Positions 27,385 to 54,036 of a stretch of DNA of 64,000 nucleotides are shown piece by piece. Under the pieces are notes generated by a model. It was not told where the DNA came from. It saw nothing but the letters and a program-made list of their open reading frames with translations, and did not search any database. The position numbers and the translations under genes were made by a program. This stretch comes from Solibacillus sp. FSL H8-0538 (GTDB lineage: Bacteria; Bacillota; Bacilli; Bacillales_A; Planococcaceae), in the NCBI RefSeq assembly GCF_038003525.1, contig NZ_JBBOPI010000001.1:1293001-1357000 (forward strand), written 5' to 3'. The number at the start of each line of letters is the position of its first letter. The first letter of the stretch is position 1.

Positions 27385-27477
27385 GGTTGGCACGATGCCA
27401 ATCAGTCAGCCGTTGACGAAAGGATGCGGCGCAGTTAGGCTGACTTCCTTGCGATTGAAAAGTGTGGTCTATGAAAA
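27385..27477. repeat. Hairpin-rich insert between the two yitT 3' ends
   Basis: About 93 bases separate the duplicate from the true gene end. They hold a small hairpin (TTGGC-ACGAT-GCCAA) and a longer one with arms AGTCAGCC and GGCTGACT. The small hairpin resembles those in repeats B and C of this window. It may be a short non-autonomous element whose insertion accompanied the duplication. Confidence 0.5.
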
Positions 27478-33551: not shown

Positions 33552-33558
33552 AGCCGTA

Positions 33559-33641
33559 GGACAGTATCAACTGTGAACTGTACCTTTTGTAATACAAACT
33601 ACAACAACATATCTGCCTTGATCTTATATGACAGGGACGGA
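33559..33641 (+). ncRNA. Tandem pan-motif hairpins in the panBCD leader
   Basis: Two hairpins share one plan. Hairpin 1 (33559-33584) pairs GGACAGT with ACTGT-A-CC, leaving a bulged A. Hairpin 2 (33612-33641) pairs TCTGCCTTG with CAGGG-A-CGGA, again with a bulged A two to four pairs from the base. Both loops have 11 bases and read ATC...TGA. The pan RNA motif is known as hairpins with bulged adenosines, often in tandem, upstream of pantothenate genes in Firmicutes. Position and structure fit, and a terminator follows at 33680, so attenuation of panBCD is a reasonable inference. The ligand is not known. Confidence 0.72.
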
Positions 33642-33679
33642 AGAAAACACGCGTTTAAACCTATCTTCACGTATGACGC

Positions 33680-45880: not shown

Positions 45881-46065
45881 CACATGGAACGGAAGGCGGC
45901 GACTCCTACGGGAAAAGCGTGAGCCTTGAGACCCCGCACGAAGCGTTTAGGAACGAAGGGCTAAGAACGCCACGTCCTGTGGCAACGCCTTCGTGACCAA
46001 CATCGTGTTGGCCCGAGGAGGCTTAAGCCACGCCCGTGGAAAGCGACCGCCTGGAGTGGAATGTG
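45881..46065. repeat. Dispersed GC-rich repeat B inside the ABC operon
   Basis: About 185 bases, far more GC-rich than its surroundings. The ends are inverted: CACAT and AGGCGG on the left pair with CCGCCT and ATGTG on the right. Inside are two small hairpins (GCCACGTCCTGTGGC and CCAACATCGTGTTGG) that recur in repeat C at 57169. It is of the type of the GGAAGGCGGCGACTCC...GGAAAGCGACCGCC repeats scattered in Bacillaceae and Planococcaceae genomes. No open frame of note. Confidence 0.8.
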
Positions 46066-47841: not shown

Positions 47842-48016
47842 GTTAAGGAAATTATAAAATACCGCCATGTGGATAACTTACAAAAAAGTAAATGCAACGT
47901 CTAGGCTAAAGCGCCAGCCCCTCGAGGTCGCGGTCTGCCCTCTGGCGAAAGTGGTGGAGCGTTTACTTTCGCTTCGGGCTCGCAAGCAGCTGTCGGGGCT
48001 AAGCAGGCACTTTAGC
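47842..48016. repeat. Dispersed intergenic repeat A, copy 2
   Basis: It is about 95% identical to 13021-13194. The right end is nine bases from the chemoreceptor stop codon. It includes the same ATGTGGATAAC left-end motif and GC-rich folded core. Confidence 0.85.
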
Positions 48017-48024
48017 GCTTTTGT

Positions 48025-50115
48025 TCATAGTTTAAAACGGCTTGCCGCAGCATTTAGTTGGGTTGCTACGTCTTTTAATTCGTGCATCATCTTGACGATT
48101 TTATGCATTTCTTGTACTTGCTCGTCGGCACTAGCCGTTACTTCTTCTGCGGAAGCTGCGGATTGTTCCGAAATGGCTGCGACCGTTTGCATGCCGGTCA
48201 TGACAGATTCTTTTTGTTCAAGCATGATGACTAGTTTATCCATTAAACCTGAGAGCTGCTGCTGAATTAATTTAGCTTGGAGCGATTGTTCATGGAACGC
48301 TGATTCTGTACTTGTTACCGAATCATTTTGCAATGCCAACAGCAGACTGTTTTTCTGTACGATGACAGCCGTTTGTTCCGCTTCTTGTAAAATACTCGTC
48401 ACTGTATGCTGCACGGTTTCAGTTTCACGGTGGGATTGTTCTGCAAGCTTGCGAACTTCATCTGCGACAACTGCAAAGCCTTTGCCATGTTCGCCAGCAC
48501 GAGCAGCTTCAATCGATGCGTTAAGCGCAAGTAAATTTGTTTGTGCTGTAATGCCTTGGATTGAACTCATCACCTGATCAATATTGGCAATTTTTTGTGC
48601 TAGGTTTTTCATCTGTTGTTCTAATTGTGCATTTACATCATTCGTATTATTGCTATGTTCTCGTAGCTTAGTGACTTCTGCCATACCTGATTGTGCTTGT
48701 TCCCCAGTTGCTTTTACTTGTACCATCATATCTTTAGATAGAAGAGAAAGCTCGTCAATCCGGTCGCCTAATAGTGATAGGTGCATATTCGATTGCTCAA
48801 TTTCCTCGGCTTGACTTAGCGCACCCTTGGCAATTTCGTCAATTGCCGTTGAAATTTCTGCACTACTTTGTGACATTTCTTCCATTACGCGGTTCATTGT
48901 TTCGGCCTGTGCGTCTACCTGGGTAGAGGAAGCACTGACATCTGAGACAACCTCATGCATCTGGCTACGCATCGCATTATAGGCTAAGCCAACTGCACCA
49001 ATTTCATCATTTTGTAATTTATTCGCATCCACCGAAATCGTTAAGGCTCCTTGCGCTGCCTGCTGTAATGCATGCTGTACATTTTTCAGCGGCTTTAAAT
49101 TACGGTAAATAGAGAAATAGGTAACCGCTGCTAGTATTAAGCCAATTAAAATACTAGCGGATAAAGACATTTTTAAAATTGTAAAAAACGTTGTTAATAT
49201 TGTTGATTTCGGTAAGAGTGTTTCAATAATCCAGTTGTCTTCACTAGTACCTAATTGAATCGGTAGGAACACAGAGTACGCATCTTCATCAAACGTTGTG
49301 GAATGTGCATAGGAGGACCAAGATTCACCACGTTGAATTGTTTCATTAATGCCGTCCCAGTCTGTTGTAATTTCCGTAATACTTTTCATAATATTATTTG
49401 CATCGTGGCTATCCGAAACGATAGACCCCCCAGATGAAATAACACGCTGAATGGCTGTTTCTGGAGTGTTTTCATGAACAATTGGATCTAAAAAATCGAG
49501 TGAAAAATCAGCAATACTCACGCCGATAAACAAATTGTCTACTATAATCGGCATCGCTACTGATACCATGGAAATTGTGTGGCCATTTAGCTCATAATCA
49601 TACGGCTCTATTATATACGTTTGGCCTTTCGCTTTAGGCTCTAAATACCATTCGCCAGCTGCGGCATCTTCGATAAAGTCAGCGTGGATGTCAACGTTTA
49701 CACGATTTATATAAGTGGCATACATTAAATCTTCTCCAATATATTGCCTGTCTGCTTCGGTTACAGAGGAGAAATTGCGACTATCTAAAATAACCGCGTA
49801 GCCTAAAATCTCTTCATTTGATTCCAGTGCCTGCGTTTTATAATCCAAAATCGTTGCGCCCTTTAATTGGTTTTGTTTATATAAGGAAGCAAGAAGGTCT
49901 CGATCTGCCTGTAACGAACTGATTGTCTCATTGAACTTTTCTTGAATGAGTAGAGCACTGTTTTTTGATAAAGCCTCAACGTATTGCTGCTGATCTTTTT
50001 TGCTAATGTCATACACGTACTGATTAGTGATGATGTTAAATAGAGTGAATAATACCAAAAACACACCAATTGTTATTAAAGATAAACGTAAAACTAAACT
50101 TCGTTGCTTTTTCAT
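48025..50115 (-). CDS. Methyl-accepting chemotaxis protein with dCache sensor
   Basis: A 696-residue chemoreceptor. It has a first membrane helix at about 10-32, a large extracellular double-Cache-like domain (about 35-300), a second helix (about 308-330), HAMP (about 330-385) and a cytoplasmic signalling domain with the hairpin tip [38 protein letters not shown] choose ATG 50115 after AGGTGG; GTG 50127 is part of that site. The C terminus ends RFKL without an obvious CheR-docking pentapeptide. The ligand is unknown; amino acids are common for this sensor type. Confidence 0.95.
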
Positions 50116-50268
50116 ATAGAGCACCACCTATTCTGTATTGAAAGTTAATGTAATAGATATTTCAAAATGTCTATTTAAAAAGAATAATATGTAAAAAATA
50201 TAGCATTTTAGTCCGAAAATGTAAATAATACGAAAATTCATAGATGATAAGTGTTGTCTAAAATCTAC

Positions 50269-50297
50269 TTGCAAAAACCACATCTTATATGTATAAT
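50269..50297 (+). promoter_or_regulatory. Near-consensus sigma-A promoter of an orphan RNA
   Basis: TTGCAA at 50269-50274, a 17-base spacer and a perfect TATAAT at 50292-50297. The start would fall at about 50304. Confidence 0.82.
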
Positions 50298-50303
50298 GAA
50301 GTT

Positions 50304-50417
50304 TAGGTGCCAAAACCTTCGTAGAGCTTCGGCTTTACAACAAAAGCTTCCGCTAACAGCACGGATTCGCTGGGAAGCTTTTGCAGCGAGCAGGGAGATG
50401 AGCCCCTGCTCTTTTTT
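50304..50417 (+). ncRNA. Candidate small RNA, about 114 nt
   Basis: Directly after the promoter the sequence folds into successive stems. The first is GTAGAGC-TTCG-GCTTTAC (50321-50338). The second is an 11-bp stem (50341-50351 with 50373-50383) capped by CAGC/GCTG around ACGGATTC, with a 5-base bulge. The last is a terminator (50388-50417) ending in six T's. No open frame with a ribosome binding site is present, and no plus-strand gene follows for over 800 bases. It therefore looks like a free-standing RNA rather than a leader. I could not match it to 6S, SRP, tmRNA, RNase P or a riboswitch class. Confidence 0.65.
50388..50417 (+). terminator. Terminator of the candidate small RNA
   Basis: GAGCAGGG pairs with CCCTGCTC, followed by TTTTTT. 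Confidence 0.88.
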
Positions 50418-50592
50418 ATGGTTATGTTTAATAACCGTGTTGATATTGTGGAATTAAACTTCAGTAGTGAAAACATATTACAATCGTGCCTAGTACGCTT
50501 GGATTAGCTAGTTACACAACAGGAGCCTTTAATAGACCCTTTTTTAAAGAGAAGTTAAACAAGTTCGTTCAATTACATATAATTTATAAACG

Positions 50593-50630
50593 AAATCCCC
50601 AAGCTGCGACAAATGGCTCGGGGATTTTTT
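50593..50630 (+). terminator. Second plus-strand terminator in the 50.4-50.6 kb gap
   Basis: AATCCCC and GGGGATT arms with inner AGC/GCT, followed by six T's. The stretch 50418-50592 upstream has no gene or clear promoter, so what it terminates is unclear. Confidence 0.7.
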
Positions 50631-50634
50631 ATAT

Positions 50635-50680
50635 GGAAAGACACAACTCGCCCTAATTTGGGCGAGTTGTGTTTTTCTAA
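50635..50680. repeat. Dispersed hairpin repeat D, copy 4
   Basis: GACACAACTCGCCC-TAATTT-GGGCGAGTTGTGTTTTTC forms a near-perfect stem flanked by A and T tracts. It abuts the stop codon of the pyridoxamine-oxidase-like gene, for which it can serve as terminator. Confidence 0.78.
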
Positions 50681-51100
50681 TTATTCTAACGAAAACTCTA
50701 ATTCTTTCGGTGGCTCACCTTTTTTATTCATGAGGCGCATGCGAATTGGTTCAATTTTTAAAATGACCATCTGCTCTCTTTCTTTGAAAACTAGGCTAGC
50801 GAAGAAATCCATTAATTTTAGTTTCAATGCCGCATCATCAAATTCAGTTACTTTGCCTTCAATTTCAACAAAAGCATCACCAAAGCCTTCATTTTCATAG
50901 CCATATAAAATATGTGTATATGGATTTGCTAATAATTCGTCCACCTTATCAGAGTTTTTATCTGTTACGGTATACAGCACGAAATCTTTATTTTTGAATG
51001 TCATATACCGGCTAAACGGCTTCCCATTACTCACTGTCGCCATTGTTCCAATATGGGAGTTATTGAGGACTTCTAAAATTTCTTTTTTTACCGATTCCAT
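50681..51100 (-). CDS. Pyridoxamine 5'-phosphate oxidase-like protein (general stress type)
   Basis: A 139-residue split-barrel flavin-binding protein. The opening VLNNSHIGTMATVSNGKPFSRYMTF and the KVDELLANPYTHILYGYE segment fit the general stress protein 26 / PNPOx-like family, which bind FMN or F420-like cofactors. ATG 51100 is chosen because AAAGGATG contains the earlier ATG 51109. It is divergent from dinG. The precise reaction is unknown. Confidence 0.85.
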   Translation of the reverse strand: MESVKKEILEVLNNSHIGTMATVSNGKPFSRYMTFKNKDFVLYTVTDKNSDKVDELLANPYTHILYGYENEGFGDAFVEIEGKVTEFDDAALKLKLMDFFASLVFKEREQMVILKIEPIRMRLMNKKGEPPKELEFSLE

Positions 51101-51180
51101 TTCGATCATCCTTTCGATGTAACATGCGTTTATCTATTTCCTAACAGATGAAAAATTAAACGGAATATTGTCTACATGTT

Positions 51181-51209
51181 TTGCATGACCGGATAACGAA
51201 AAATATGAT
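51181..51209 (+). promoter_or_regulatory. Promoter of dinG
   Basis: TTGCAT at 51181-51186, a 17-base spacer and TATGAT at 51204-51209, about 40 bases before the dinG ATG. I see no LexA box between them. Confidence 0.7.
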
Positions 51210-51249
51210 AAAATGCCGTTATAATTAATTGAACTGTGAGTTGAGCGCA

Positions 51250-54036
51250 ATGATGGAAAGTCAGAAATATGCAATAGTTGATTTAGAAACGACAGGGCAC
51301 TCGCCGTCAAATGGTGATCGGATGATTCAAATCGCTATTGTCATTATGAAAAATTGGTGTATTGAAAAGACTTTTACAACATTCATTCACCCAGGAAAAC
51401 CAATTCCTTTGCTTATTCAAGATTTAACGAATATTACGGATGTTGATGTTGCGGACGCCCATCCATTTGAGGTGCATGCTGAATATATTTATGAGCTGCT
51501 TCAAGATGCGGTATTTGTTGCACATAATACCGATTTTGATGTGACCTTCTTACAGTCGGAGTTTATACGTGCCGGTTTACCGAAGTGGCATGGTAAAAAA
51601 ATTGATACAGTTGAACTAGCGAAAATATTATTTCCGATGTCTCTGAGCTATAAACTTAGTGATTTAGCGAGCGATTTAAATATTCCGCTTGAAAGCGCGC
51701 ACCGTGCGGATGATGATGCCAAAGCGACGGCTCTTTTATTGAAGAAATGCTGGGAAGAGCTACTTAACTTACCCCAGCTTACTTTAGAGCAACTGCATAA
51801 ACGTTCATTCCGTTTGAAAACAAATTTATCGCAGCTGTTTTTTGAAGCCCTTCATGAAAAACGCAAAAAAGTAGGGGATTCGAAGGACCATGTGTATTTT
51901 AATAAACTGGCAATCCAAAAAATGGCACCAACACCGAGTTCAAGTGTGCCCGAATACCATTATCCAGAGACGAATGCGGAAAAAATGGAGCTTTTGTCTT
52001 GTGCGCTACCAAATTATGAAGAGCGCCCACAGCAATTTCATATGATGGATACCATTTGGCGTAGTTTTAATAATAAAACGGAGCAAGTTATTGAGGCGTC
52101 AACGGGGATTGGGAAAACTTTGGCCTACTTGCTGCCTTCGATTTACTATGCCAAAACAAAAGGTAAAAAGGTTGGTATTAGTACATATACATCACATTTA
52201 CTCGACCAACTATTGTATAACGAAATACCGAAGCTAGAAGCGGTATTAGGTGAAAAAGTGAAAGTTGCACTACTGAAAGGAATGAATCATTACGTGGATG
52301 TCACGCGCTTTGAGCATATGTTAAAAGTGCCAGATGATTCGTATGATGAGACATTAACGGTTCTGCAAGTGTTAATTTGGCTTTCTAAAACGAAAACAGG
52401 GGACTTAGATGAGCTCAATGTAACAGGTGGGGGACAATTACTATTAGATAAAATTCGTAAAATTGAAGTGCCGAAAACGAAGATGCCGCTGTATGATTTT
52501 TACGCGCGTGCGTTGCAAAATAGTCGTCAGGCGGATGTTATTATTACCAATCATGCAATGCTACTCGCTGATTTAGTACGCCATGAACAAATTTTTGATA
52601 ATATCGGCGGATGGATCATTGATGAGGCGCATCAATTTGTGCAAGCTGCTATTCAGCGCGATGAAAAAATCTTCTCCTACACAAACTGGAAGTATTTATT
52701 CGGGCAAATTGGGAATTACACAGATGAACAGTTATTTTATTCCTTACAGCGCGCGGCATTAAAAAAACAACGTGTAGCGAAACAAACATTGCTACTGCTT
52801 GAAAAACGCTTCATGCAAATGACGACACAGTTTGATGGCGCAATTAATCTACTCGTTTCGGATATCCAACAAGCTCTGAAAAACATGAATAAGCACGACT
52901 TGAAACCAACGATTTTCCTACAAGATTTAGACATTGATTTTAAACGCATTGGGCAAGTTTCAGCGGCGATTCAAAATTGGATTGATTTGGCAGAAGAGGT
53001 AGCGGTTCAGTTTGAGGGTGGTGTTGACGAGTTAGCACCAGAACACCAGTATTTACTGGAGCAATGGCAATACTGGATTCGCGAGTTTAAGTTAAAGGCA
53101 TCGGAATGGGATGAGGTATTCCTTATTCAGCATCAGCATTATTCAGCCTGGATTGAAGTAGATCGCCGCAGTATTCCTGCTAGTATTCAGCTCTTTAAAA
53201 AGCCAATTAATGTGACGACAGTGATTCAGCAATTATTTGACCCAATTCGAGAACATGCATCGATTATTTGGACATCTGGTACGCTAACAGTGCCAAATAA
53301 TGAGCGTTTCATTACGGACCAGCTCGGTATAGACCTTACTGTTCCAATCGAAGTGTTGCAGGCGTCACCAAGTTATTATAGCGGTGCGCAAGCCTATGTG
53401 GTAACAGATATGCCGGATATTCAAGCCGTATCCCAGACGGATTATATTGAGGCAGTAGCACATGCCATCACGCGCACCGTTCGTACAACAGAAGGGCGCT
53501 GCTTTGTCCTATTTACATCGCAAGACATGCTGCGTAAAACGGTGGATCTCATCCAAGAAAGCGAGCTACTCAGAGACTATATGTTATTTGCACAAGGTGT
53601 GACAGCAGGAAGTCGCATGCGTTTACTGAAATCCTTTCAAAAGTTTAATCATTCCGTGTTGTTCGGGACAAATAGCTTCTGGGAAGGGGTAGATGTACCG
53701 GGTGACGGACTTTCAGCAGTTATTGTTGTGCGTTTACCGTTTTCATCACCTGATGAGCCGACATTTAAGTCTCGGGCGCATTTTTTACAATCAAATGGCC
53801 GTAATTCATTTGCGGAATTATCATTACCTGAAGCGATTATACGCTTTAAGCAGGGCTTCGGTCGTTTGATTCGTTCAAGCGAAGATAAAGGGGTATTCAT
53901 CGTGCTTGACCGACGAATTGATACAAAATCATATGGTGGGGAGTTTATTCGTGCATTACCCCCGATTTCTATACAAAAACTACCCCTCACATCTATGGTA
54001 CAAGAGCTCGGAACTTGGTATAATGAAAAACGATGA
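51250..54036 (+). CDS. dinG: DinG-family helicase with N-terminal DnaQ-like exonuclease
   Basis: A 928-residue protein. The N-terminal part (about 7-175) is a DEDD exonuclease with DLETTG at residues 11-16. The helicase part has Walker A GIGKT at 286-290, DEAH at 458-461 and late motifs FGTNSFWEGVDVPG and QGFGRLIRS. The Firmicute DinG lacks the iron-sulfur cysteines of E. coli DinG; I see no four-cysteine set here. In related bacteria it behaves mainly as a 3'-5' exonuclease. ATG 51250 or 51253 are both possible; upstream TTG 51229 overlaps the promoter region. Confidence 0.95.
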   Translation: MMESQKYAIVDLETTGHSPSNGDRMIQIAIVIMKNWCIEKTFTTFIHPGKPIPLLIQDLTNITDVDVADAHPFEVHAEYIYELLQDAVFVAHNTDFDVTFLQSEFIRAGLPKWHGKKIDTVELAKILFPMSLSYKLSDLASDLNIPLESAHRADDDAKATALLLKKCWEELLNLPQLTLEQLHKRSFRLKTNLSQLFFEALHEKRKKVGDSKDHVYFNKLAIQKMAPTPSSSVPEYHYPETNAEKMELLSCALPNYEERPQQFHMMDTIWRSFNNKTEQVIEASTGIGKTLAYLLPSIYYAKTKGKKVGISTYTSHLLDQLLYNEIPKLEAVLGEKVKVALLKGMNHYVDVTRFEHMLKVPDDSYDETLTVLQVLIWLSKTKTGDLDELNVTGGGQLLLDKIRKIEVPKTKMPLYDFYARALQNSRQADVIITNHAMLLADLVRHEQIFDNIGGWIIDEAHQFVQAAIQRDEKIFSYTNWKYLFGQIGNYTDEQLFYSLQRAALKKQRVAKQTLLLLEKRFMQMTTQFDGAINLLVSDIQQALKNMNKHDLKPTIFLQDLDIDFKRIGQVSAAIQNWIDLAEEVAVQFEGGVDELAPEHQYLLEQWQYWIREFKLKASEWDEVFLIQHQHYSAWIEVDRRSIPASIQLFKKPINVTTVIQQLFDPIREHASIIWTSGTLTVPNNERFITDQLGIDLTVPIEVLQASPSYYSGAQAYVVTDMPDIQAVSQTDYIEAVAHAITRTVRTTEGRCFVLFTSQDMLRKTVDLIQESELLRDYMLFAQGVTAGSRMRLLKSFQKFNHSVLFGTNSFWEGVDVPGDGLSAVIVVRLPFSSPDEPTFKSRAHFLQSNGRNSFAELSLPEAIIRFKQGFGRLIRSSEDKGVFIVLDRRIDTKSYGGEFIRALPPISIQKLPLTSMVQELGTWYNEKR

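Follow-up and report, generated by a model that had tools for sequence, protein, structure and literature searches.

The question raised by this locus is what a short, strongly folded RNA is for when it carries its own promoter and terminator and lies in a gap between genes of Solibacillus sp. FSL H8-0538. Is it the orphan that the first-pass annotation took it to be, or the local member of something wider, and what in the cell might it act upon? The anatomy of the RNA comes from the window, by which is meant the whole stretch of 64,000 nucleotides of DNA that was analysed, and the rest of the answer comes from its relatives.

The putative RNA gene, of about 114 nucleotides, occupies positions 50303–50417 on the plus strand, the start being judged from the -10 box and the end from the U-run, with homologues in support. 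Ahead of it is a sigma-A-type promoter (50269–50297, plus strand) of a kind common among the four-hairpin loci, in which TTGCAA (50269–50274) and TATAAT (50292–50297) are separated by 17 nucleotides and together score 10/12 against the consensus. Described earlier as one of the best promoters in the window, it is among the four best promoter-like sites in the interval 48000–53000. That interval holds 23 such sites compared with 15.6 expected from shuffles, so a single promoter-like site proves little. As to the fold, 200 dinucleotide shuffles average -32.1 kcal/mol (sd 3.6), and none of them folds as well as the RNA, which reaches -48.2 (z -4.46). Four hairpins, all on the plus strand, make up the molecule. 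HP1 (50305–50318) is the AGGUGCCAAAACCU hairpin, complementary in antisense to 23S rRNA at helix 89 (3' strand). HP2 (50321–50338) has a variable, covarying stem and is capped by UUCG in the window and by GGAAC(A/G) in the tRNA-linked forms discussed below. HP3 (50341–50383) is, by fold and alignment, a long stem with a one-sided bulge and the apical loop CGGAU. HP4 (50388–50411) is the terminator hairpin, with the loop AGAUGAGC and a U-run extending to 50417; within its loop GAUGAGCC (50397–50404) is antisense to a strand of 23S helix 90. The first-pass annotation had described just such a complete unit, with a TTGCAA-17-TATAAT promoter, three stems including a UUCG-capped one and a terminator, and all of these elements are present.

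The surroundings are also as had been described, in that no plus-strand gene follows in the gap. The upstream neighbour is a minus-strand gene for a methyl-accepting chemotaxis protein, and downstream a minus-strand gene (50681–51109, pyridoxamine-oxidase-like) stands between the RNA and dinG, which at 51229, some 810 nucleotides beyond the RNA, is the first plus-strand gene with a recognised family. Two more hairpins are found in the same gap at 50593–50679, the second a terminator-like stem of 20 pairs. The inverted repeat to which attention had been drawn does exist, with arms TGAAGTTTA (50297–50305) and TTAAACTTCA (50454–50463), but the first of these shares sequence with the -10 box and the start site and is not conserved in the homologues, and the repeat is therefore treated as chance.

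Does this RNA belong to a family that has already been described? A search of Rfam 15 had been suggested as a check, and it gave no family at the gathering cut-off at the window RNA; across 12 homologous loci only tRNA and a separate Bacillaceae-1 RNA exceeded the cut-off, and across 4 further homologous loci only tRNA did so. The matches obtained at a relaxed threshold, which flank the RNA or score far under the cut-off, were rejected. Thus, ncr1175 (RF02450, 33.6 bits against a cut-off of 60) falls on the flank at 50593–50675 and not on the RNA, RsaF (RF01858, 15.7 against 60) and, on the opposite strand, BsrG (RF01412, 14.5 against 55) touch the RNA at chance-level scores, and Bacillaceae-1 (RF01690) is 4 kb from it. 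What these four have in common with the window RNA is that they are structured Firmicute RNAs. Elsewhere in the window there are Bacillaceae-1 RNAs at 45944–46011 (plus strand, 72.4 bits) and 27387–27454 (minus strand, 46.8 bits), as well as the cis-regulatory pan motif (RF01749) at 33558–33644 (plus strand, 63.1 bits). Searches among the open-licence papers of PMC turned up no report of this RNA. Of the 9 papers that came up for the exact strings GGTGCCAAACC and GGUGCCAAACC, PMC4690841 was by title the only one concerned with bacterial RNA, and there the string belongs to an antisense oligonucleotide for 23S that includes GAGGTGCCAAACCTC in the region of C2499. With no Rfam 15 family and no report in open-licence PMC, the RNA family looks new. 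The earlier proposal of a new small RNA of this lineage gains support from the missing Rfam match, from the conserved promoter and from the covarying helices. A clear Rfam match and a lack of conserved pairing had both been named as outcomes that would refute it, and it withstood both checks.

The term orphan, by contrast, has to be abandoned, given that the RNA is family-wide, that a form linked to tRNA-Val exists and that the 5' hairpin is antisense to 23S rRNA. BLASTN located the RNA in 13 of 61 genomes, its own included, and a MAFFT alignment of these 13 sequences gave a four-hairpin consensus of 29 pairs, 15 of which have two-sided changes; in the control, run on 12 distinct rows, the observed level was reached by none of 500 shuffles and none of 6 slid versions. 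Covariance models extend the range considerably within the family searched, the Caryophanaceae of NCBI, which we take to be the group also known as Planococcaceae. Model R1, for the four-hairpin form, matches in 118 of 261 family genomes, and model R2, for a three-hairpin form and built on 16 sequences, in 192, part of these matches being weak (E up to 1e-3); the union of the two, compared by hand, is 204 of 261. A draw of 299 genomes from the class contained 31 with R2 matches, and the 13 of these outside the family are all from one genus, recognised as Exiguobacterium by an identical tRNA-RNA sequence.

For a closer view, 60 stretches chosen by hand from the matches were taken with the window and these 61 loci (60 distinct) were fitted to the R1 model. 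In the resulting alignment pairing is kept in 96.8% of cells, with two-sided changes at 26 of 29 pairs, figures to be read with the bias of a model-fitted alignment toward structure and with a fourth helix that is forced in the tRNA-linked rows, where HP4 is absent. The stems of HP2 to HP4 vary freely and compensatory changes occur in every helix save for the inner three pairs of HP1, which are constant in the 60 distinct sequences, the outer pair being A-U, G-C or U-A. HP1 is exactly GGTGCCAAACC (GGUGCCAAACC) in 52 of 61 loci, a count to be read with the bias of the searches toward HP1, and in the other nine, the window among them, the loop has one to three additional bases. The HP4 loop GAUGAGC is invariant in 13/13 sequences of the BLAST-found alignment; GATGAGC in 37/37 four-hairpin loci is so by construction, as it was the sorting criterion. 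The HP3 loop is CGGAU in most loci and CGTAT or CGAAT in several. A promoter scoring at least 9/12 stands directly ahead of the RNA in 28 of the 37 four-hairpin loci, compared with 1.6% of 3700 random positions, and the neighbouring genes differ among genera. There are also second copies in some genomes that have the four-hairpin form: the g18 second copies (L061, L063, L064 and L065) are preceded by a TATAAT box and stand shortly before an ATG, and that in a Viridibacillus arvi contig (L062) is linked to tRNA-Val. Conserved structure, promoter, terminator and wide distribution make a solid comparative case for a real small RNA gene family. The window member, with its own promoter, an intrinsic terminator, a conserved structure and a variable downstream gene, has the marks expected of a trans-acting small RNA gene.

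What, then, might it act upon? The most suggestive feature is HP1, where GGUGCCAAACC is antisense to GGUUUGGCACC. The latter belongs to the peptidyl transferase centre, as part of the helix 89 3' strand (E. coli 2489–2499, a placement that follows the oligonucleotide numbering of PMC4690841). In the unmasked part of the rRNA operon of the same genome, the reverse complement of AGGTGCCAAACCT (AGGTTTGGCACCT) has a single occurrence, within 23S, and that of GATGAGCC (GGCTCATC) likewise a single one, 7 nucleotides beyond the first. By counting, the HP4 target is 2508–2515 in helix 90, so that the two targets flank 2500–2507; the genome has 11 copies of the target 23S stretch. Searched in sense, the HP1 and HP4 strings are missing from the unmasked operon, where CGGAACA occurs once. 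The antisense match is 11–13 nucleotides in loci without an extra loop base and 10 contiguous nucleotides in the window, whose HP1 has one extra A. Among 20000 rRNA sets simulated with a first-order Markov model, the 11-mer was met 18 times, the 13-mer never and the window 10-mer 45 times, whilst an 11- or 10-mer with GCTCATC or GCTTATC within 60 nucleotides was found in none of the 20000, all of these figures carrying a look-elsewhere cost because the pairing idea arose after the loops had been inspected. The window RNA has a single 10-nucleotide antisense match to the operon, at the helix 89 site, and also a 10-nucleotide sense match to the 23S-5S spacer; its match taken alone is not exceptional. 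Across the family, the conserved HP1 segment has a long exact complementarity to rRNA, beyond what chance would give.

On the ribosomal side, a 23S pattern that itself fixes most of the helix 89 site matched in 18 of 39 genomes, the other 21 being mostly drafts from whose assemblies the rRNA is probably absent. GG precedes the helix 89 site in 30/30 loci. At helix 90 the 15 family genomes have GGCTCATC, and 3 genomes of the family with tRNA-Lys-linked HP1, which is without HP4, have GGCTCGTC. Invariance of the inner pairs of HP1 while the other helices vary is what would be expected if the partner is itself invariant. The rRNA site hardly varies, and compensatory change is therefore of no use as a test of the pairing.

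Duplex energies, calculated against the 16S and 23S rRNA of Lysinibacillus and the 5S rRNA of the genome itself, point to the same site for HP1. For 28 distinct versions of HP1 drawn from the 61 loci, helix 89 is the best target (-24.0 kcal/mol, z -6.7), and it is overlapped by each of the eight top-scoring windows among those listed. The hairpin is weak in comparison: in the window the duplex with helix 89 is worth -24.4 kcal/mol against -3.7 for HP1 itself, and over three examples the hairpin ranges from -3.7 to -7.6 kcal/mol and the duplex from -23 to -24. Full-length scans were made in coarse steps on 12 four-hairpin and 10 three-hairpin RNAs. For the 10 three-hairpin RNAs, chosen from 24 and scanned over their first 92 nucleotides, the helix 89 site comes first at -32.4 against -26.4 for the next site, a score matched in none of 16 shuffled rRNA sets (best -30.8, mean -28.0). 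With the four-hairpin RNAs (12 chosen of 37) 23S 1855 comes first and 5S second, and windows of helix 89/90 rank 4th to 7th and 10th. HP4 on its own ties with 5S and other GC-rich sites, making helix 90 energetically non-unique, and GGCUUAUCUCC can also pair with GGAGAUGAGCC on the 5' strand of helix 89, with one G-U pair (scan window 2491). The order HP1 with helix 89 and HP4 with helix 90 is incompatible with one continuous duplex. The best sites of HP2, from a set picked by the GGAAC pattern in which a few stretches are not HP2, are 23S 2431 and 1983; that of HP3 is 23S 1581, with 16S 207 in the three-hairpin form. Matches of the HP2 loop to the A-loop or helix 71, and of HP3 to rRNA, are of 5–8 nucleotides only and no claim is made of them. 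Kissing between the HP1 and HP3 loops was likewise set aside, the complementarity being by eye no longer than two pairs.

A small hairpin with an invariant stem and loop also fits a protein site. In the main rival reading a conserved RNA-binding protein recognises HP1 (GGU-GCCAA-ACC), the RNA acts as its scaffold or sponge, and the 23S match is coincidence or mimicry. The repeated GGA in the loops of HP2 and HP3 does resemble RNAs that bind protein at many sites. The reading is nonetheless unlikely: the one to three bases inserted into the HP1 loop in 9 of 61 loci would be unusual in a tight hairpin-protein site, and the antisense match of 11–13 nucleotides is left unexplained. Nor does CsrA suit as the protein. 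RNAs that sequester CsrA keep GGA strictly in several hairpin loops, whereas here the HP3 loop is without it in several loci (CGTAT, CGAAT), as is HP2 of the window type, and a CsrA sponge was rejected.

Could the RNA instead be an ordinary trans-acting small RNA that pairs with mRNAs through its loops, its match to rRNA being due to chance? Its own promoter and terminator in changing neighbourhoods are the usual anatomy of Gram-positive small RNAs, and four sites for TTTGGCACCT outside rRNA in its own genome, viewed with 60-nucleotide flanks, could include a target. Yet of the 16 sites for TTTGGCACCT in that genome 11 are in 23S genes and one is the RNA gene, leaving those 4 elsewhere; the reversed control of the string has 6 sites. 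Targets in mRNA seldom impose conservation of loops over many genera, and the constancy of the loops here exceeds that usual constraint, such that this explanation is a poor prospect.

The relatives of the RNA also reveal a second context, which is of interest for how it may be produced. The three-hairpin form comprises HP1, HP2 and HP3, with HP3 as the terminator and no HP4, and is found a few nucleotides behind tRNA-Val(GAC) in Sporosarcina, Chryseomicrobium and Viridibacillus. This is the position of 19 of 28 scanned loci, which are 19 of the 20 showing a tRNA end (L102, the twentieth, has only the 3' half of a tRNA), and of 18 of 19 loci in a second set. Exiguobacterium, Planococcus and Domibacillus share with this form no more than HP1 and HP2 (loop GGAAC), their third hairpin being a simple terminator. 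A tRNA 3' end followed by HP1 was seen in 76 stretches of named genomes, from Sporosarcina, Planococcus/Planomicrobium, Paenisporosarcina, Chryseomicrobium, Tetzosporium, Viridibacillus, Exiguobacterium, Domibacillus, Halalkalibacter, Alkalihalobacillus and Bacillus strains. Any tRNA-like end with HP1 was matched in 38 of 398 class genomes, the reversed control giving no match among the genomes listed, and in four genera of another family HP1 lies behind tRNA-Lys(CTT), in 4/4 cases. The association is a variable one: many tRNA-Val genes of the family have no RNA behind them, and of 23 tRNA-like loci examined four have the RNA (L108, L112–L114) and one, L132, a degenerate HP1. The 64-kb window has no tRNA within it, and the closest tRNA in its genome (L120) is followed by a different hairpin. 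Some contigs contain several tRNA-Val 3' ends or RNA copies 2–60 kb apart (L204; L198, L202 and L253; L214 and L228; and those of genomes G195, G238, G200 and G213), an arrangement that resembles stacked integrated elements.

In the tRNA-linked loci HP1 starts about 1–4 nucleotides past the last base of the tRNA, and the four-hairpin RNA starts, judged from the -10 box, within a few nucleotides of the same point. RNase Z cuts CCA-less tRNA precursors directly after the tRNA. Since the RNase Z site and the -10 box would give nearly the same 5' end, one RNA is probably made in two ways, either from its own promoter or by cleavage of a tRNA precursor.

The ends of tRNA genes are also where integrating elements are met, and HP1 occurs in the repeated ends of elements integrated there, so that a role as DNA retains some weight. 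Viral contigs gave 32 stretches with a tRNA 3' end and HP1, by eye 20 tRNA ends and 12 chance matches in coding sequence. HP1 as GGGTGCCAAACCC stands directly behind tRNA-Lys(CTT), or its 3' half, and ahead of a different branched hairpin at L307–L310 and in the viral contigs L312, L315, L317, L319, L325, L326, L329, L334, L337 and L343; in the viral contig L338 (1369–1464) HP1 (AGGTGCCAAACCT) lies directly behind tRNA-Leu(CAA). A tRNA-Arg group in viral contigs (for instance L316) was left uncounted, as there are TGTGCCAAAT repeats downstream of it and its HP1-like stretch may thus be an integrase site. It could accordingly be held that the tRNA-linked form is a tRNA terminator region kept by integrative recombination, with HP1 in the attachment site and the freestanding copies as relics. 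Two viral contigs (L317/L319 and L329/L334) each have two tRNA-Lys 3' ends with HP1 and different hairpins behind, from which integrating elements seem to bring their own version, and members of cluster CL13, tyrosine integrases by eye, are near 8 tRNA-linked loci. Such an origin is very improbable for the family, however, as the RNA persists among constant neighbours, with no member of CL13, in Exiguobacterium and the S. ureae group, and as the four-hairpin copies, which are without a tRNA, show conservation of the promoter and covariation in the helices. For the window RNA itself a mobile-element origin was rejected, there being no match in 50,697 phage or 72,556 plasmid records and no four-hairpin pattern in the viral contigs. 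Finally, a cis-acting leader or riboswitch can hardly be right, for although 12 of 61 loci, from four genera and with the window among them, have dinG further down on the same strand, as the next gene in 10 of 37 four-hairpin loci, and a second copy in g18 lies directly before an ATG, the next gene (an ORF of at least 100 amino acids) is on the opposite strand in 25 of those 37, the downstream clusters differ and a terminator closes the RNA far ahead of dinG in the window.

A trans-acting RNA family absent from Rfam, whose HP1 opens onto helix 89 of 23S rRNA, is thus the reading preferred here, and its chances appear to be evenly balanced. The RNA would be transcribed from its own promoter or else cut by RNase Z out of a tRNA-Val precursor, two routes that would lead to a nearly identical 5' end. 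The weak HP1 would then open and pair with helix 89 on its 3' strand, and HP4 of the four-hairpin form may reach helix 90 or the 5' strand of helix 89. According to PMC12560758, helices 89 and 90–92 are among the regions that are immature in late B. subtilis 50S particles. Helices 89 and 90 are buried in the finished 50S subunit but unfolded late in its assembly, and the action is therefore proposed to fall on immature, exposed or damaged 50S, where the RNA could be an assembly chaperone or checkpoint, or an inhibitor. This rRNA-directed mechanism is one that we infer from complementarity and conservation.

The proposal has partial precedents. In position the RNA is reminiscent of 3'ETS-leuZ of E. 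coli, which lies directly behind a tRNA and is released by processing; here the position is seen and the processing deduced, the position being that of a tRNA trailer in the tRNA-linked homologues and not in the window copy. Differences are the covarying hairpins, the conservation over several genera, the freestanding form with a promoter and the 23S match. As reported in PMC8166272, 3'ETS-leuZ is a 53-nucleotide sponge of RyhB and RybB. The place of action calls to mind the 50S assembly GTPases RbgA, YphC and YsxC, which act while helices 89–92 are immature (PMC12560758); those are proteins, whereas an RNA is proposed at the same place here. In its presumed action the RNA is closest to a further group of molecules. 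The snoRNAs and archaeal C/D box sRNAs pair with rRNA and in some lineages are linked to tRNA. As with these, a short RNA has a conserved segment antisense to rRNA of the functional core, but the host is bacterial and the complementary segment lies inside a hairpin. A C/D box RNA in the strict sense was rejected, RTGATGA being found in 2 of 61 loci, CTGA in 3 and both together in none.

At its fullest, and more tentatively, the picture is that of a ribosome-directed small RNA of the Bacilli, a counterpart of the snoRNAs in action if not in descent, which might open or hold helix 89, and perhaps helix 90, in late assembly or on idle or damaged subunits, and whose supply, from its own promoter or as a tRNA trailer, could be tied to tRNA synthesis. 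If the pairing is real, bacteria would employ a non-coding RNA dedicated to acting on the catalytic core of their ribosomes. To our knowledge, that role has so far been assigned to protein factors, joined in archaea and eukaryotes by guide RNAs. Action directed at rRNA would, if proved, represent a new kind of system, and the tRNA-linked form would offer a simple route by which tRNA processing is coupled with maturation of the 50S subunit. Even without any action on rRNA, what has been uncovered is a widespread and strongly covarying RNA family, with no match in Rfam 15, in common environmental genera.
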